Shown: piece by piece, positions 57,122 through 63,963 of the stretch
Layout: every line of letters starts with the position of its first letter
Numbering within the stretch: the stretch's first letter is position 1
Assembly: GCF_013377885.1 (NCBI RefSeq)
Contig: NZ_JABKAU010000026.1
Span: 1 to 64,000 of the forward strand
Length of the DNA: 64,000 nt
Direction: 5' to 3'
DNA from: Hymenobacter lapidiphilus
GTDB lineage: Bacteria; Bacteroidota; Bacteroidia; Cytophagales; Hymenobacteraceae
The notes under the pieces: model-generated
Told to the model about the DNA's origin: nothing
The model's input: only the letters and a program-made list of their open reading frames with translations
Database searches by the model: none
Program-made: the position numbers and the translations under genes

Positions 57122-58537
57122 TCAGACCATCTTGCGCAGGGCCCACAGGCTCCAGAGTATCACCATCATGCCCACGCCCAGGAACATCCAGCGGACGGGA
57201 ATGCGCCCGGCAAGCTTGGCCGCTATGGGCGCCGCGGCCACCCCGCCCACAATAAGGCCGGCGACAATCTGCCAGTGCGAGATGCCGATGAGCGTGAAAA
57301 AAGTGAAGGCGCTGGCGAAGGCGACAAAGAACTCCACCAGGCTCACCGTGCCGATGACGTACTGGGGAGTGCGGCCGTTGGCAATGAGCGTGCTGGTGAC
57401 CAGCGGCCCCCAGCCGCCGCCGCCAAAGGAATCGAGGAAGCCCCCGGCGCCCGCCAGCCAGCCGGCGTACTTTACCCGGCGCCGTTTTTCCCGCTGCCGG
57501 CGCAGGGCTTTGCTGAGAATGCGCCAGCCCAGAATCAACAGGTACACCGCCAGCAGTGGCTTTATCCAGTTCGCATAATGCTCGCCATAGTGGGCCAGCA
57601 GCAGGGCCCCCGCCACCGAGCCGGCAATGCCCGGCAGCAGCAACACCCGGAACAGGTGCTTGTTGACGTTGCCGTAACGGTAATGATGGTAGCCCGAGGC
57701 TCCTGAGGCAAACACCTCGGCTGTATGAATGCTGGCGCTTACGGACACCGGACTCATCCCCAGCGACATCAGGCTGATGGCCGAGACCACCCCGTAGCCC
57801 ATGCCCATCAGCCCGTCAATGAGCTGCGCCAGGAAGCCAACGGCCACGAATGTGCAAAAGGTGCCGGAGCTTTTAAACAGCGCCACGACCTGCCCGAGGC
57901 CGAAGTAGTAGACAAGAACAGTGACCAGTACGAAGACCGTCAACGCGCCAAGCGCGCCCATGGCAATGCGCCGCCAATAGGCGGTAGCCAGCGATTCGGA
58001 GCGCGGACCATCGGCCGGCTCGGCCGTTGTGGCGTTGGCAAACTCGGGTTTTTGTCCTAAATCTTCCTGCAGGTGCTGGCCAGTGATGGGTAGGTACTGC
58101 CCCGCGGAAGAGAGGTGGAAGTCGCCCTGTTCGGGGGCATCGGCGACGTTGGTGAGAAGGCGCCGGGCGGCGGCGGCAGTTCGGATGTACTGGTTGAGAA
58201 CCGGATTGTCGGTGGCGACGAACACGATGTCGGCGCCCGCCAGGTCGTCGTCGTCGTAGGGTCGAACCTGCAGCTGCACGCCCGGGTGCTGGTCGGCCAG
58301 CGTTTGTAGCTCGGGCACCATGCGCGGCGCCACCACCGTTACGGCGATAGCCGGGCTGTTGCGCAGAATGGCCGTGAGCGTCGTCAGGCCCGCGCTGCCG
58401 CCGCCCACCAGCAACACCCGAAACTGCTCCAGCTTCAGAAAAATCGGGAACAAGGCCTCAGGGGCGGGCGGTAAGCCGGGCAGCGGCCCGGAATCGACCG
58501 GGTCGGAATCGGAAAAGGCAATGGGGTCTACGGCCAT
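57122..58537 (-). CDS. Siroheme-synthase-like (CysG N) / TauE-SafE fusion protein
   Basis: The 471 aa protein joins two parts. Residues 28-150 form an NAD-binding domain like precorrin-2 dehydrogenase: LFPIFLKLEQFRVLLVGGGSAG, ADIVFVATDNPVLNQYI and LTNVADAPEQGDFHLSS. Residues 190-471 form a TauE/SafE sulfite-exporter-type membrane domain with eight helices (GLMGMGYGVVSAISLMSLGMSP, LDSFGGGGWGPLVTSTLI). It lies after cysN in the sulfate-assimilation operon. The membrane half may move sulfate or sulfite. The first half could supply siroheme for sulfite reductase, or sense NAD. Confidence 0.82.
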   Translation of the reverse strand: MAVDPIAFSDSDPVDSGPLPGLPPAPEALFPIFLKLEQFRVLLVGGGSAGLTTLTAILRNSPAIAVTVVAPRMVPELQTLADQHPGVQLQVRPYDDDDLAGADIVFVATDNPVLNQYIRTAAAARRLLTNVADAPEQGDFHLSSAGQYLPITGQHLQEDLGQKPEFANATTAEPADGPRSESLATAYWRRIAMGALGALTVFVLVTVLVYYFGLGQVVALFKSSGTFCTFVAVGFLAQLIDGLMGMGYGVVSAISLMSLGMSPVSVSASIHTAEVFASGASGYHHYRYGNVNKHLFRVLLLPGIAGSVAGALLLAHYGEHYANWIKPLLAVYLLILGWRILSKALRRQREKRRRVKYAGWLAGAGGFLDSFGGGGWGPLVTSTLIANGRTPQYVIGTVSLVEFFVAFASAFTFFTLIGISHWQIVAGLIVGGVAAAPIAAKLAGRIPVRWMFLGVGMMVILWSLWALRKMV

Positions 58538-58687: not shown

Positions 58688-59977
58688 TTAAATGAAAAAA
58701 ACGGCAACGGCAGGTGCGGGGCTGGCAAAAAATTCGGGGTCGGTTTCGGTAACCAGCCCGGCGGCCAGGGTTTCGCCGGTTTGCTCGTCGATGAGAATCA
58801 GGGCCCCGGTGACGCGGTTCTGCTGGTAGCAGTCCACTACCAGCGGCAGCGCCGTGCGCAGCTGCACCCGCACAATGTCGTTAAGCTGGGCAGCATCGGC
58901 GCCGTGGTGCTCGAAGGTGGCCACGTTGGTTTTGTACACGATGGCCGTCACGGAGGCCTTTACAACGGCGCTGTGGTGCTGCACTAGGAGCTTGCGGCCC
59001 GCTTTGAGGGGCCGTTCGTGCATCCAGCACAGGATGGCTTCCAGGGCGCGCGTCACGGCCGGATGGGCTGTTGTGGGCACGATGGTGTCGCCGCGGCTCA
59101 CGTCCACGTCGTCGCGCAGGCGCAGCACCACGGCCTGCGGGGCGGTGGCCGTCGCTACTTCCTGCTGGTTCACTTCAATGGCTTCAATCACCGTTTCAAG
59201 GCCTGAGGGCCAGATGCGCACCTGGTCGCCGGCGTGGTAGGTGCCACTCTGAATGCGGCCGGCGTAGCCCCGGTAGTCGGGCAGCTGCTCGGTCTGGGGC
59301 CGAATGACGTACTGCACCTGGAACCGGGGTTCGTTGGGGTTAGCATCGGCTGGTACGGGCACGCTTTCCAGGTGTTGCAGCAAGCTGGGCCCCTCGTACC
59401 ACGCCAACTGCCGCGAGTGCCGCACCACGTTGTCGCCGTTCAGGGCACTCATCGGAATGGCCACTACCTGGGCCAGCCGGAGCTGCTGGGCTACCCGCTG
59501 GTAGTCGCTCACAATCCGGTCGAACACGGCCTGATCGTAGTCTACCAGGTCCATCTTATTCACGGCCAGCACAAAGTGCCGAATGCCCAGCAGCGCGGCA
59601 ATGAGGGTGTGGCGGCGGGTCTGCTCGATCACGCCGTGGCGGGCATCGACCAGCACAATGGCCAGGTAGGCATTCGAGGCGCCCGTTACCATGTTGCGGG
59701 TGTACTGCACGTGGCCCGGCGCGTCGGTAATGATAAATTTGCGGCGGGGCGTGGTGAAGTACTTGTGGGCCACGTCGATGGTGATGCCCTGTTCCCGCTC
59801 GGCCTTCAGGCCATCGGTGAGCAGGGCCAGGTCTACGGCGCCGCTGGCGTGGCGGCGCTTTTCCAGCGTCGCCAGCACGTCCAGCGACACGGCGTCGCTG
59901 TCGTAGAGCAGGCGGCCAATGAGCGTGCTTTTGCCATCGTCGACGCTGCCGCAGGTGATGAATCGGAGAAGGTCCAT
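58688..59977 (-). CDS. cysN: Sulfate adenylyltransferase subunit 1 (GTPase)
   Basis: The 429 aa protein is an EF-Tu-like GTPase: P-loop CGSVDDGKSTLIGRLLYDSD, switch DAPGHVQYTRNM and base recognition NKMDLVD. It hydrolyses GTP to drive APS formation by CysD. No APS-kinase (CysC) extension is present, which fits the iron-sulfur APS reductase encoded upstream. It is 102 bases after cysD. Confidence 0.95.
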   Translation of the reverse strand: MDLLRFITCGSVDDGKSTLIGRLLYDSDAVSLDVLATLEKRRHASGAVDLALLTDGLKAEREQGITIDVAHKYFTTPRRKFIITDAPGHVQYTRNMVTGASNAYLAIVLVDARHGVIEQTRRHTLIAALLGIRHFVLAVNKMDLVDYDQAVFDRIVSDYQRVAQQLRLAQVVAIPMSALNGDNVVRHSRQLAWYEGPSLLQHLESVPVPADANPNEPRFQVQYVIRPQTEQLPDYRGYAGRIQSGTYHAGDQVRIWPSGLETVIEAIEVNQQEVATATAPQAVVLRLRDDVDVSRGDTIVPTTAHPAVTRALEAILCWMHERPLKAGRKLLVQHHSAVVKASVTAIVYKTNVATFEHHGADAAQLNDIVRVQLRTALPLVVDCYQQNRVTGALILIDEQTGETLAAGLVTETDPEFFASPAPAVAVFFI

Positions 59978-60079: not shown

Positions 60080-60991
60080 TTAGAAATAGCCGTTGCGTTT
60101 GCGGTCTTCCATCCCCGTTTCGGAGAGGTTGTCATCGAGGCGGGTGGCCCCCCGCTCGCTCACTTTGGCCTGTAGCAGGTCCTGAATGATGTCGTCGACG
60201 GAGGCGGCGTCGCTTTCCACGGCCGCTGTGCACGTGGAGTCGCCCACGGTGCGGAAACGCACGCGGCGGCGCACGATTTCGTCGGTTTCGTCGAGGTGCA
60301 GGTGCTCGCTCAGGCCCAGCAGCTGGCCGCTGGGCAGCACCACGCACTGGCGCTCGTGGGCGAAGTAGATATCGGGCAGCGCAATGTTCTCGCGCTGGAT
60401 GTAATTCCACACGTCCAGCTCGGTCCAGTTGGAAATGGGAAACACGCGCACGTTCTCGCCCTTCTGAATGCGGCCGTTGTAAATGTTCCACAGCTCGGGG
60501 CGTTGGCGGCGCGGGTCCCACTGGCCGAACTCGTTGCGCACCGAAAAAATCCGCTCCTTGGCGCGGGCCTTCTCCTCATCGCGCCGGGCCCCGCCGATGC
60601 AGGCATCGAACTCAAATTCCTCAATCACATCGAGCAGCGTGTAGGTTTGTAGGGGGTTGCGGCTAGGGTACTTGCCGCCCGGCTCGCGCAGGCCCCGCTC
60701 CCGGATGGTGTCTTCCACCTTTCGCACAATTAGCTTCTCGCCCAACGAAGCGGCCAGGGAGTCGCGAAAAGCAATGATTTCCTGGAAGTTGTGGCCCGTA
60801 TCGATGTGCACCAGCGGGAACGGAAACCGGCCGGGCCGGAAGGCCTTCTCGGCCAAGCGCGTGAGGGCAATGGAGTCCTTGCCGCCCGAAAACAGCAGCG
60901 CGGGCCGTTCGAACTGCCCGGCTACTTCCCGCAGAATGTGAATGGCCTCGGCTTCTAGCCGGTCGAGGTAGTCTAGTGCTTTTTTAGTCAT
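60080..60991 (-). CDS. cysD: Sulfate adenylyltransferase subunit 2
   Basis: The 303 aa protein has the PP-loop FSGGKDSIALTRLAEKAF, TGHNFQEIIAFRD and the family block RRDEEKARAKERIFS. It ends ...GMEDRKRNGYF as CysD proteins do. It forms APS from ATP and sulfate together with CysN. It lies 61 bases after cysH and is transcribed with cysH and cysN. Confidence 0.95.
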   Translation of the reverse strand: MTKKALDYLDRLEAEAIHILREVAGQFERPALLFSGGKDSIALTRLAEKAFRPGRFPFPLVHIDTGHNFQEIIAFRDSLAASLGEKLIVRKVEDTIRERGLREPGGKYPSRNPLQTYTLLDVIEEFEFDACIGGARRDEEKARAKERIFSVRNEFGQWDPRRQRPELWNIYNGRIQKGENVRVFPISNWTELDVWNYIQRENIALPDIYFAHERQCVVLPSGQLLGLSEHLHLDETDEIVRRRVRFRTVGDSTCTAAVESDAASVDDIIQDLLQAKVSERGATRLDDNLSETGMEDRKRNGYF

Positions 60992-61052: not shown

Positions 61053-61817
61053 CTAGTCTGAGCGTTTGCCGGCTCCTGCTACCGGGTCGAGGCCCTGGGA
61101 CGGGGCGGTGGCATGCAGGCCGCACTCCTTGGCGACCTGGTCTTCCCACCACCACCGGCCGGCCCGGAAGTCCTCGCCCGGCCGGATGGCGCGGGTGCAC
61201 GGCGCGCAGCCGATGCTCACGAAACCCTGTTGGTGCAGCGGATTGACCGGAATTCCGTGTTGCTGGGCGACGTCATGGCACTGCTCCCAGGTCCAGTCGA
61301 ACACCGGATGCACTTTGATGAGCTGGTGCGCGGCATCCCACTCGGCGGGGTACATGATTTGGCGGTTGGCCGACTGCTCGGCGCGGATGCCGGTGACCCA
61401 GATTTTCTGGCCCGCCAGCGCCCGTCCCAGCGGCTCCAGCTTCCGGATGTGACAGCACTGCTTGCGGTTTTCGATGCTCTCGTAAAAGCTATTGGGGCCC
61501 TTGGCCAGCAGCAGTTGCTCCACGCTGGCGGCCTGCGGCGCAAACACCTCGATGGGCTTGGCGTAGCGCAGCAGGGTCTTGTTCCAGGTTGCGTAGGTTT
61601 CCTGAAAATTGCGGCCCGTATCGAGCGTGAACACCCGGATAGGCAGGTCGTTCTCGAAAATGAAGTGGGTGATAATCTGGTCTTCGAGGCCAAAGGAGGT
61701 TGAAAACGAGGCCGTGCCGGGGAAGTGTTCGGCCAGCAAAGTCAGGGTCTCGGAAACGGATTGGCCCACCAAGTAGCGGCGTAGGTCATCGACCAGCGCC
61801 TCAGTTGCGAGGTGCAT
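61053..61817 (-). CDS. cysH: Assimilatory APS reductase (iron-sulfur type)
   Basis: The 254 aa protein carries SFSTSFGLEDQIITH and TLDTGRNFQETY (nucleotide binding) and ends with the catalytic ECGLH (Cys232). Cysteines Cys121-Cys122 (KQCCHIRK) and Cys204/Cys207 (GCAPCTRA) give the CC...CxxC pattern of a [4Fe-4S] cluster. The enzyme should therefore reduce APS directly and not PAPS. The lack of a CysC domain downstream agrees. It is the first gene of the operon and is preceded by a long structured leader. Confidence 0.93.
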   Translation of the reverse strand: MHLATEALVDDLRRYLVGQSVSETLTLLAEHFPGTASFSTSFGLEDQIITHFIFENDLPIRVFTLDTGRNFQETYATWNKTLLRYAKPIEVFAPQAASVEQLLLAKGPNSFYESIENRKQCCHIRKLEPLGRALAGQKIWVTGIRAEQSANRQIMYPAEWDAAHQLIKVHPVFDWTWEQCHDVAQQHGIPVNPLHQQGFVSIGCAPCTRAIRPGEDFRAGRWWWEDQVAKECGLHATAPSQGLDPVAGAGKRSD

Positions 61818-62008
61818 GCGTACAAGCTGAATGCGGCTTTCCCGGGTGGGAGTTGGCGAAAGCCCGGTTTGGAAAGGGGAGCCCCAGGCACGAAAACAAG
61901 GCGTGCTGGCTTAGGCAGACTACGCCGGGAGTAGTCAGAGTATAACCTAATCCAGCCGCTTGTTTATCAGCGCGTTTGGATTTTTAGACCGGCCAGGTGG
62001 AAATGAAA
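61818..62008 (-). promoter_or_regulatory. Structured leader between Cys-rich ORF and cysH
   Basis: On the minus strand this stretch can form three hairpins. They are AATCCA...TGGATT with inner CGCT/AGCG (about 61941-61976), GACTAC-N7-GTAGTC (61918-61936) and GGCTTTC...GAAAGCC (61835-61864). The last ends only 17 bases before the cysH start and could mask its translation start. No gene is supported within it. The arrangement fits attenuation-type control. Confidence 0.5.
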
Positions 62009-62128
62009 CTAGGCACAACAACCCACAGCCGCTGTCAGACAGACGGACGTGCACGCCATGCAACAACACATTTGCACTGAAGCAAAGGCGGCGGTGCTGT
62101 GCAGGCGAGAGTTGTTGAAAGTTTTCAC
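62009..62128 (-). CDS. Cysteine-rich leader peptide ORF (putative)
   Basis: A GTG at 62126-62128 opens a 39 aa frame beginning VKTFNNSRLHSTAAF and ending MCCCMACTSVCLTAAVGCCA. The last 20 residues, which could also start at the internal ATG (62071), contain seven cysteines and two methionines. Such density of codons for the end product just upstream of sulfur-assimilation genes is the hallmark of a leader peptide. Ribosome stalling on these codons would report Cys-tRNA supply. It lies between an S-box riboswitch and cysH. Translation is not proven. Confidence 0.55.
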   Translation of the reverse strand: MKTFNNSRLHSTAAFASVQMCCCMACTSVCLTAAVGCCA

Positions 62129-62134
62129 GGCAAC

Positions 62135-62232
62135 TTGTTTTTGTATGTCCAGGAGTTGGCCCCGTTCTGCCTTGGCAGGGGACTGCCGGCGTTTCATCGA
62201 GCCGGTCTCTCCGCACCTCTCTGTAAAACCAT
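62135..62232 (-). ncRNA. S-box (SAM) riboswitch upstream of cysHDN
   Basis: The minus strand shows the conserved order of the SAM riboswitch core: AGAGAGGTGCGGAGAGA, then CCGGCTCGATGAAACGCCGG (kink-turn type GATGAA), then a P3 hairpin CCCC-TGCC-AAGG-CAG-AACGGGG and the CCAACTCC junction. P2 pairs GGUG with CGCC, P3 pairs CCCC with GGGG, and GUUUU (62229 side) with AAAAC can close P1. The P4 stem of the Bacillus type is not evident, so it may be of a SAM-I/IV variant. It suggests repression of sulfate assimilation by high SAM. Confidence 0.75.
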
Positions 62233-62423
62233 TCTTCTACGGGGAGGAATTAAGCACGCAAGAAAGGTCCTTATTCCTGCAAAAGCAAAACCGCTGGTGT
62301 TCGAAGATGTCCAACCACCAGAAAAACGCTTAATACTTAATAGATGAACTATTAGCTGGCTGCTCATGAGCTAAACTGTCTTGTTTAATTGAATCATACC
62401 CCCATTGCTGTGTCAAAACGCAG
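62233..62423. other. Promoter-bearing gap before the riboswitch
   Basis: No gene is visible. The stretch should contain the promoter for the riboswitch-cysH transcript on the minus strand. A clear -33/-7 pair was not found. The right end merges with the tail of the IS5 transposase frame. Confidence 0.4.
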
Positions 62424-63116
62424 TCATGTGGAGCTTGCCAACATGGAAAAGCGCTTCTTCAAGCTTGCTAGAGCCTGTTGTGGACTAGATGGCTGAAAAA
62501 CGCCTTTGGCTAGTAACAAGCCGACGAAGACCAGGAAGTGGAATTGCTGCATGGTCAGCGCCAAGCGCTCGTAGTCGCGGGCCAGGCGGCGGAAGCGAGC
62601 AGCCCAGCCAAAGCTGCGCTCCACGACCCAGCGGCGTGGCAGCAGCACGAATCCGGTCTGGCCCGCTGGCTTGGCAATGGCTTGTAGATCAATGTCGTGC
62701 ACCGCTGCCGCGTACTCGGTGTCTTCGCCCGTGTAGCCCTGGTCGACATAGGCCACCTCGACTTTCTGCCCCGTGACCTGCTGGACCCGCTCGCAGAGGG
62801 CCGCCACCTGCCCGCGGTCCGGTTCGTTGGCCGGCGTGACGACGGCCGCCAGCAGATGGCCCAGTGTATCGACAGCGACATGGACCTTGCTGCCCTTGCG
62901 CCGTTTGGCCCCGTCGTAGCCCGCGCGGGCCCCGCTTTCGGGGGGGCTCTGCAGCGTGCGCGAGTCCAGAATCACGGCCGTGGGCTCAGCCTGGCGGCCG
63001 GCTAGCAGCCGCGCCAGTTCGCGCAAATCAGCCAGCAGGTGCTCGAAACATCGGTTATCGCGCCAGCGAGCCCACTGCTGGTACACGGCCGGCCAGGGCG
63101 GTAAATCGTGGGGCAA
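62424..63116 (-). pseudogene. IS5 family transposase, N-terminus missing
   Basis: The 230 aa frame starts inside the family pattern ([17 protein letters not shown]) and lacks the first 40 or so residues (DUF4096 part). It contains [16 protein letters not shown] (Asp), [14 protein letters not shown] (Asp) and [15 protein letters not shown] (Glu). An IR-like GAGCCTGTTGTGGACTAG begins at 62471, and the frame runs past it to stop at 62424, outside the element. Its 5' end is replaced by the IS1595-type element at 63120. Confidence 0.8.
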
Positions 63117-63119
63117 GTA

Positions 63120-63963
63120 GGGTGTTGCTAAACAAATAGGGAAAACCTCCGACTCGGGCGCCCAGCTGCCCGATTTTTATGATTAGCGCCCTATTTAACA
63201 AGGGGCTTAGGAAGCAAAGGCGTTCAAAACCTTTGTAACTTCCTTTCATGCAGCAAGTTAACCGCTACTGCAAATCTGCAAAAATATCGGAGGTCAAATT
63301 CCGCTATTTGTTGCGCCTGTTTGCCCTGGATTTGACGGCCTCTGACACGGCGCGGCTGACGGGGCTAAACACTCGCTCCGTCAACACGATTTACCTGCGG
63401 CTGCGCCGCCGCATGCAGGCCGAATGCCGCGTGCCGGTCGAACTGGCCGGCGCGGTCGAGTTGGATGAATGTTACTTCGGTCCGCGCCGGGTGCGGGGCA
63501 AGCGGGGCCGGGGAGCAGGGGGCAAAACGGTGGTCTTTGGCTTGTTCAAAAGGGGCGGGCAGGTGTACACAGAAATTGTCCCAAACTGTCAGAAAAAGAC
63601 CTTACAAGCCATTATCCGGGGCAAAGTGGACGTCTCGGCCATGGTCAATACCGATGGCTGGCGCGGCTATGACGGGCTAGTGGATGTGGGCTATGACCGC
63701 CACTTTCGAGTGCATCACGGCCAGGATGAGTTCGTTCAGGGTGCAGCCCACATCAACGGCATCGAGTCGTTTTGGGGCTTCGCGAAAGCCCGGCTCCAGC
63801 AGTTTCGTGGCCTGCGCCAAGAGTTGTTTTTGCTGCATCTGAAAGAGTGTGAATTTCGCTTTAATCACCGCCAGCAGGACCTCTACAAATCCTTGCTGAA
63901 ATTGCTCCGACAGCAACCCCTATAAGTCGGTTTGCTTCCTAAGCCCCTTGTTTAACAACACCC
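63120..63963 (+). mobile_element. IS1595-type insertion sequence with doubled left end
   Basis: The right end (inverse of GGGTGTTGTTAAACAAGGGG, ending 63963) is matched at the far left by GGGTGTTGCTAAACAAATAG (63120) and again internally at 63194-63218 (ACAAGGGGCTTAGGAAGC). The stretch between the two left copies resembles the start of the 43078 MITE (GAAAACCTCCGACTCG). The left end thus appears recombined with a MITE. The transposase is intact. Confidence 0.8.
63248..63925 (+). CDS. IS1595 family transposase
   Basis: The 225 aa protein begins with a homeodomain-like region (RYLLRLFALDLTASDTARLTGLNTRS). The DDE(N/H) core follows: AVELDECYFGPRRVRGKRGRG (Asp), MVNTDGWRGYDGL (Asp) and HINGIESFWGFAKARLQQFRG (Glu after Asn). 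The VELDE-YFG and NGIESFW motifs are diagnostic of the ISXO2-like domain. It lacks the zinc ribbon found in longer members. It could mobilise the MITE at 43078. Confidence 0.9.
   Translation: MQQVNRYCKSAKISEVKFRYLLRLFALDLTASDTARLTGLNTRSVNTIYLRLRRRMQAECRVPVELAGAVELDECYFGPRRVRGKRGRGAGGKTVVFGLFKRGGQVYTEIVPNCQKKTLQAIIRGKVDVSAMVNTDGWRGYDGLVDVGYDRHFRVHHGQDEFVQGAAHINGIESFWGFAKARLQQFRGLRQELFLLHLKECEFRFNHRQQDLYKSLLKLLRQQPL

Follow-up and report, generated by a model that had tools for sequence, protein, structure and literature searches.

The cysH operon of Hymenobacter lapidiphilus is preceded by a short reading frame rich in cysteine codons, and this frame is very likely a leader with a regulatory role. 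Probably, it supplies the control codons of a cysteine-responsive attenuator, the translation of which would be gated by the SAM-I aptamer lying in front of it. The balance tips slightly towards a broader reading, namely that Hymenobacter possesses a class of SAM-I riboswitch that acts solely through the start codon of a leader sensing cysteine, forming a serial gate for SAM and then for cysteine. In this genus, the regulon would comprise at least three units (the cysH operon, metY and an ATP-grasp gene), the same arrangement would stand before cysH in two further genera, and the other SAM-I aptamers of the genus would mostly be equipped with ordinary terminators.

In the window, that is, the whole stretch of 64,000 nucleotides that was analysed, the order on the minus strand is a SAM-I-like aptamer, the leader frame, approximately 190 nt with possible hairpins, and then cysH, cysD and cysN. 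The features concerned are as follows.

62138..62229, minus strand: degenerate SAM-I riboswitch aptamer (RF00162; the end at 62138 was set by homology to relatives)
62009..62128, minus strand: leader peptide frame with a GTG start, 39 codons plus TAG, ending MCCCMACTSVCLTAAVGCCA (from the list of open reading frames and the sequence)
62009..62071, minus strand: control-codon block with seven Cys codons (from the sequence)
61053..61817, minus strand: cysH, phosphoadenylyl-sulfate reductase (NF002537, score 244.1 bits, cut-off 154)
60080..60991, minus strand: cysD, sulfate adenylyltransferase small subunit (TIGR02039, score 408.9 bits, cut-off 396.6)
58688..59977, minus strand: cysN, sulfate adenylyltransferase large subunit (TIGR02034, score 533.9 bits, cut-off 336.1)

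The nearest named counterpart of the window's cysH is that of H. rubidus, with 89% identity. Behind the cys genes, the frame at 57122-58537 of the minus strand encodes a protein whose residues 30-144 resemble the N-terminal domain of siroheme synthase (61.2 bits, slightly below the cut-off of 62.3), and the second part of this protein (residues 224-443) weakly matches a hypothetical-protein family.

An earlier note on this DNA had described a seven-cysteine frame between a SAM riboswitch and cysH; such a frame exists, and the frame drawn there coincides exactly with the one that opens at the GTG. The translation of 62128-62009 is VKTFNNSRLHSTAAFASVQMCCCMACTSVCLTAAVGCCA, in which all seven Cys are found among the last 20 residues. 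With seven Cys in 39 codons, the frame has the form of an amino-acid leader, a short frame with clustered codons for the pathway product before the operon. An in-frame ATG at 62071, which would yield MCCCMACTSVCLTAAVGCCA, is kept as a possible alternative start. A 62-codon version of the frame would begin at the ATG at 62197; this start was ruled out, since it is located inside the aptamer and is therefore unlikely to be in use. The distance from the leader stop to the cysH start is 191 nt in the window and 127-233 nt across the genus, where the gene start was inferred by alignment with the window's CysH, and in the largest class of genus loci the likely cysH ATG is about 15-20 nt nearer to the leader than this alignment-inferred start. 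The closeness of leader stop and gene start that is typical of reinitiation was found neither in the window nor in the genus.

Conservation of the leader was assessed upstream of cysH in relatives, a leader being scored when an ATG or GTG frame of 8-60 codons with at least four Cys and one CC was present within 600 nt upstream. Matches to cysH were obtained in 81 of 120 genomes of the genus (the remaining 39 gave none), and all 81 upstream regions were examined. A leader was found at 78 of these 81 loci, compared with 14 of 81 for the antisense strand and a mean of 7.05 (maximum 13) for 20 dinucleotide shuffles. The proposal of the earlier note, which hinged on conservation of the cysteine codons in related genomes, withstands this comparison. 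The three loci without a scored leader are L104, where the stop is lost, and L111 and L134, which contain three Cys each. At L098 and L099, the GTG frame is broken after nine codons, and the Cys block is retained behind an ATG. A Cys-rich frame also occurs at all 12 named Hymenobacteraceae loci (L033-L044; 11 Hymenobacter and one family-level MAG), which are not independent of the genus set because several of them are the same genomes.

Outside the genus, the family sample consisted of 40 of 66 genomes with a cysH match, with g4, which gave weak matches only, left out. A leader precedes cysH at 37 of these 40 loci (g5, 7/7; g6, 13/13; g3, 17/20), and the family leaders outside the genus frequently end in C-terminal runs such as CCCCCC. 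In the wider phylum, six of the 40 best-scoring non-genus loci have a leader (shuffle mean 1.1, antisense 1), and the distribution is therefore patchy outside the family. At seven Bacteroidota cysH loci (L049-L054 and L056), a SAM aptamer is located on the opposite strand and presumably belongs to a divergent gene; at L049-L051, cysH is preceded by a solitary Cys leader.

The codon content of the leader was examined with identical leaders taken once, as in the counts of composition and folding, leaving 75 distinct leaders of the genus. In all 75, the last Cys lies at most five codons from the stop. The ratio of TGT to TGC is 333:113 in the leaders; the corresponding cysH genes, taken from the same genomes, give 28:386 (odds ratio 41). 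The enrichment of other T-ending codons is far smaller (NNT:NNC of 455:855 in the leaders versus 2108:7673 in cysH), and a general T-ending preference accounts for a small part of the TGT bias. Substitutions in the leader body number 764, 616 and 755 at the three codon positions, giving no codon-position signal, and the leader as a conserved protein was rejected for this reason; the flat pattern fits a leader whose body is unimportant. The strong conservation of the C-terminal Cys could suggest a small Cys-rich protein with a function of its own, such as a metal or redox peptide. However, length and body vary freely, and the frame occurs ahead of three different genes, of which two are sulfur genes, in most cases immediately after a SAM aptamer; these features make such a product most improbable.

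Alternatively, conservation could act on an RNA element in which Cys codons occur by coincidence. In all 33 sequences of A2, the first Cys pair reads TGTTGT, and a hairpin in g6 takes in Cys codons, both of which would suit an RNA element. The aligned Cys positions, on the other hand, show 346 pairwise exchanges between TGT and TGC, the poly-Cys runs of other genera are built from different DNA, and the start adjacent to the aptamer opens a Cys frame at nearly every genus locus, so that an incidental role of the codons is very unlikely.

The control-codon leader stands in a nearly fixed relation to the aptamer. Of the genus cysH loci, 80 (L081-L160) were scanned, and RF00162 exceeded the gathering score at 78, the misses being the window and L120. 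At each of these 78 loci, the first start codon (ATG or GTG) after the aptamer is a GTG at a distance of 4-13 nt. The frame opened by this GTG has at most 60 codons and at least three Cys at 75 of the 78 loci; L098 and L099 (early stop) and L104 (stop lost) differ. In g3 and g5, a Cys-bearing start is located 4-12 nt behind the aptamer at 24 of 24 loci with both aptamer and leader; at L173, the poly-Cys leader has a different start, 5 nt beyond this first Cys-bearing one.

SAM-I aptamers of the genus are of two kinds. The loci compared (the 30 best matches and L078 of the window's own genome) comprised three of the cysH kind and 28 of the met-type. A terminator-like site within 90 nt of the aptamer is present at 23 of the 28 met-type loci, a set made up of the best-scoring match per genome and not of a random draw, versus none of the 78 cys-type loci. 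Therefore, the leader start region is the sole visible platform of the cys-type aptamers. With a start codon 4-13 nt past the aptamer and no terminator-like site within 90 nt, the two layers look serially coupled. Dual control by a SAM riboswitch and a Cys leader stacked upon it had been proposed earlier as an unusual arrangement; the pairing has turned out to be the rule in the genus, and its layers look serial instead of merely stacked. Two of the 28 met-type loci, L008 and L013, contain a frame with at least four Cys that extends from a start 5 nt past the aptamer through the terminator, and these frames are taken as chance.

It is also conceivable, if improbable, that aptamer and leader are independent neighbours, the aptamer using another platform and the leader its own. 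In g6, the leader is present in 13 of 13 genomes and an aptamer near cysH in none of the 13 (coordinates compared by hand). At L240 (G236:C1), from another family, a SAM riboswitch is followed by its own terminator and then, 112 nt behind the aptamer, by the start of a Cys leader before cysH, a combination that is stacked and apparently uncoupled. Independence is at odds with the spacing of 4-13 nt and the lack of terminator-like sites at all 78 genus loci, and with the matching geometry found in two other genera as well as ahead of two other genes. In one genome of another family, a leader ending CCCCCCC starts 19 nt behind the aptamer (G364, L262).

The two further genes of the proposed regulon are metY and the ATP-grasp gene. 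The window's own genome has four RF00162 loci, three of them with a Cys leader, namely those of cysH, the ATP-grasp gene (L077) and metY (L079). Across 61 genus genomes searched, the leader frame was found before metY (TIGR01326) at 28 of 30 loci and before the ATP-grasp gene at 20 of 24 loci, with no leader match at these 54 loci in the antisense control. For the ATP-grasp gene, the bare criterion picks out 22 of the 24 loci, from which L291 and L294 were left out, their frames lying away from the expected leader position; L282 and L295 are counted among the 20, though the regular expression saw no aptamer core there. The two non-hits are L276, which runs off the contig so that the upstream region is not covered, and L289, which is without a leader. 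An aptamer scored above threshold at all 20 of the metY and ATP-grasp loci given to cmscan (20 of the 54), and the leader start lies 7-9 nt behind the aptamer, the ATG of L311 and of L321, where the first frame is a different one, having been read from the sequence.

The ATP-grasp gene at G000:C39:9582-10580 (L272), which lies under an aptamer and a Cys leader, matches the RimK family with 55.9 bits, below the cut-off of 143.4, and is possibly an unrecognised sulfur or thiol gene. Most of the g6 leaders (L180-L198) and metY leaders (L302-L331) contain an RMR/RMRM-like motif before the Cys block, encoded in g6 by a short inverted repeat, AAGCGAATGCGCTT. Given this common motif, the leaders before different genes may be related.

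Regarding the mechanism, the SAM aptamer quite probably gates translation of the leader. In cys-type aptamers, P1 has an A-rich 3′ strand (ATATAAAAAC in most relatives) that ends a few nucleotides before the start codon. In Bacteroidota, ribosomes land on A-rich stretches upstream of the start. Binding of SAM would form the P1 helix and hide the A-rich 3′ strand ATATAAAAAC, the likely landing zone before the GTG; with this zone hidden, the leader would remain untranslated and cysH would be off. When SAM is low, a ribosome would initiate at the leader GTG. If Cys-tRNA is ample at that point, the ribosome would read through the TGT-rich block, terminate and be released, leaving cysH off; if cysteine is short, it would stall on the Cys block beside the stop codon, and cysH would be on. 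Translation of the leader, stalling and gating by SAM are what we infer from comparison of the DNA sequences.

The least certain step is the output of the leader, for which a Rho-type occupancy gate is the preferred guess, held tentatively and at rather less than even chance. In the manner of TnaC, the stalled ribosome would cover the nucleotides after the stop, which are rich in C and poor in G, and thereby block Rho. The first 20 nt after the leader stop contain 40% C and 16% G in the genus; in g6, the figures are 28% C and 12% G, with much A and a Y of 0.53, so that C-richness is weak there. The C-rich stretch behind the stop lends the gate little weight.

According to the textbook scheme, a stall on the Cys codons would instead favour an antiterminator over a terminator before cysH. 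Potential hairpins between leader and cysH, to which the earlier note had pointed, are present as the following candidates.

61947..61987, minus strand: hairpin H2 (by eye; possible in L082, L085 and L155 with both arms changed)
61918..61936, minus strand: hairpin H3, GACTAC..GTAGTC (alignment columns 211-229)
61884..61909, minus strand: possible hairpin H4, CCAGCACG..CGTGCCTGG (from the sequence, by eye; relatives support it little)
61835..61864, minus strand: hairpin H5, GGCTTTC..GAAAGCC, 17 nt before cysH (from the sequence; alignment columns 301-313)

In H3, two pairs are G-C instead of A-U, in two of the 13 aligned window-class sequences each, and H5 has a counterpart in most of the 13 aligned sequences, with some paired changes (by eye). 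A search for intrinsic terminators at 61700-62500 of the window found none. Between leader and cysH, terminators were found at 11 of 75 loci of the genus (g1) versus a shuffle mean of 8.6, which is no enrichment, and they are likewise at chance level in g3 (1/16), g5 (0/7) and g6 (0/13). The terminator and antiterminator expected of a leader attenuator were thus not found in the window, and terminators are not enriched in the genus; a terminator is present in L048 and L261. Constrained folding gave a mean accessibility of the cysH start of 0.516 without a ribosome and of 0.517 and 0.518 with a stalled one. As the start became more open at only 36 and 34 of the 75 loci, the idea that a stalled ribosome opens up the cysH start was rejected. 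Long-range pairing between the Cys block and the cysH start, an idea that came from the consensus fold of the window class, was rejected as well (cognate −25.6 versus swapped −26.3 kcal/mol, 75 loci). With folding unchanged and terminators at the shuffle level, the suggestion that a stalled ribosome switches the hairpins before cysH is not supported by these two tests.

Some observations do favour hairpin switching. A broad pairing test (RNAduplex, long windows) was negative for both the 1:2 (p 0.60) and the 2:3 (p 0.37) combination. A narrower column test in class A (32 relatives) gave 15.75 for the cognate and 13.32 for the swapped 2:3 helix behind the stop (0/5000 permutations), pointing to coevolution, with a p-value that is optimistic because the test was chosen after the broad negative and its columns came from a predicted fold; neither the competing 1:2 helix (p 0.16) nor the 1:3 helix (p 0.93) was significant in this test. 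In g6, the hairpin that includes the last Cys codons is supported when double-changed cells are counted (four; 1/500 shuffles) and not when pairs are counted (two; 60/500). L048 (contig CANFLQ010000148.1) has the full set, with a Cys leader, a terminator with a T run before cysH and an antiterminator arm complementary (by eye) to the first arm of the terminator, and looks like a textbook attenuator. L261 (G260:C1:198780-200254) has the tandem Met/Cys leaders MMMCMCC and MMMMCCM before a cysH relative, with an intrinsic terminator after each, and is a possible double attenuator. These two textbook-like loci, from elsewhere in the phylum, suggest that Cys leaders of cysH are capable of hairpin attenuation. 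Taken with the chance-level terminators and the unchanged folding, hairpin switching is unlikely to be the general output.

The serial gate of SAM and then cysteine appears reduced in the strain of the window. There, cmscan placed the aptamer at 62122-62229 of the minus strand with 38.6 bits, below the Rfam gathering score of 44.4, and an Rfam scan of the whole window at the gathering threshold gave no match. The window aptamer departs from the alignment at eight columns that are at least 95% conserved, compared with at most three in any other of the 69 aligned aptamers, among which L120 is absent as it has no alignable core. The changes are located in P1, the GGCAACC stretch, the GGTGCC stretch and two further places. 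The SAM riboswitch noted earlier ahead of the leader is thus recognisable as a match to RF00162, at a score and with core departures that mark it as degenerate. Upstream of it lies a further altered feature.

62262..62269, minus strand: likely promoter remnant, GACCTTTC (from the upstream regions of L081, L082, L085 and L155, by eye)

The Bacteroidetes −7 promoter consensus is TAnnTTTG. In three close relatives, the promoter box is TACCTTTG, TACATTTG or TATCTTTG, and in the window it is GACCTTTC. The leader frame and the cys genes are still open in the window strain. Because its aptamer is degenerate, this strain has possibly lost the SAM layer, and functioning SAM control is distinctly improbable there. 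As judged from sequence, the strain has probably lost the SAM layer and undergone a change of promoter while retaining the Cys leader; with an aptamer that looks decayed, the Cys layer alone probably remains. Two transposase-like frames, recognised by eye, are located upstream of the aptamer (62424-63116 on the minus strand and 63248-63925 on the plus strand), and their insertion may explain the altered promoter.

The proposed system can be placed beside several known ones. In the trp, his and ilv attenuators, control codons for the pathway product are found within a short leader. Unlike these, the present system shows no enriched intrinsic terminator, and translation of its leader is probably SAM-gated. 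In Rho attenuation of the TnaC type, the ribosome is held at the leader stop by peptide-tryptophan arrest. The proposed hold at a leader stop beside a C-rich stretch is similar, whereas it would result from a shortage of Cys-tRNA and not from such an arrest. The ordinary SAM-I riboswitch (S-box, RF00162) has the aptamer fold in common with the cys-type set, which is without a terminator-like site within 90 nt; unlike that of terminator-bearing SAM-I riboswitches, the output of the cys-type aptamers appears to be the start of the leader peptide. Canestrari et al. 2020 reportedly described polycysteine leaderless short ORFs before mycobacterial cysteine genes as cysteine-responsive attenuators. 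Both those and the present frames are short, rich in Cys codons and located before cysteine genes. The mycobacterial ORFs are described as leaderless, in contrast to the Hymenobacter leader, which is mostly found just behind a SAM-I aptamer and before three genes; its position after an aptamer of about 92 nt would argue against a leaderless transcript.

Cys-codon leaders described in mycobacteria receive mention in PMC13236596. For ppe2 of Mycobacterium tuberculosis, the relevant passages of Kipkorir et al. 2024 (PMC11260477) describe a riboswitch that controls translation of a uORF and thereby expression of the downstream gene; its ligand is B12, and the gene is translated mainly by termination-reinitiation (PMC11260477). 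As far as those passages go, the two systems are alike in that the uORF start is adjacent to the aptamer, here at 4-13 nt in 78 of 78 loci, and differ in the ligand (SAM, not B12), in the Cys control codons found here and in the distance of the leader stop from cysH. Thus, within what these sources relate, Cys-codon leaders and riboswitch-controlled uORFs are already known, each separately. A text search of the open-licence literature, in which most matches were left unopened and beyond which other print is possible, found no aptamer with an amino-acid-sensing leader as its output; the same search found no Cys leaders in Bacteroidota.

If the proposed scheme is true, two linked metabolites would be read by a compact natural logic gate, in which a riboswitch that has no terminator of its own acts on a gene approximately 240-350 nt away. 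The natural variants, well over a hundred in number, would then be available for studying how a leader acts on its gene. For Hymenobacter and parts of its family, an aptamer combined with a Cys leader is probably a means to check both SAM and cysteine before the enzymes of sulfur metabolism are synthesised.
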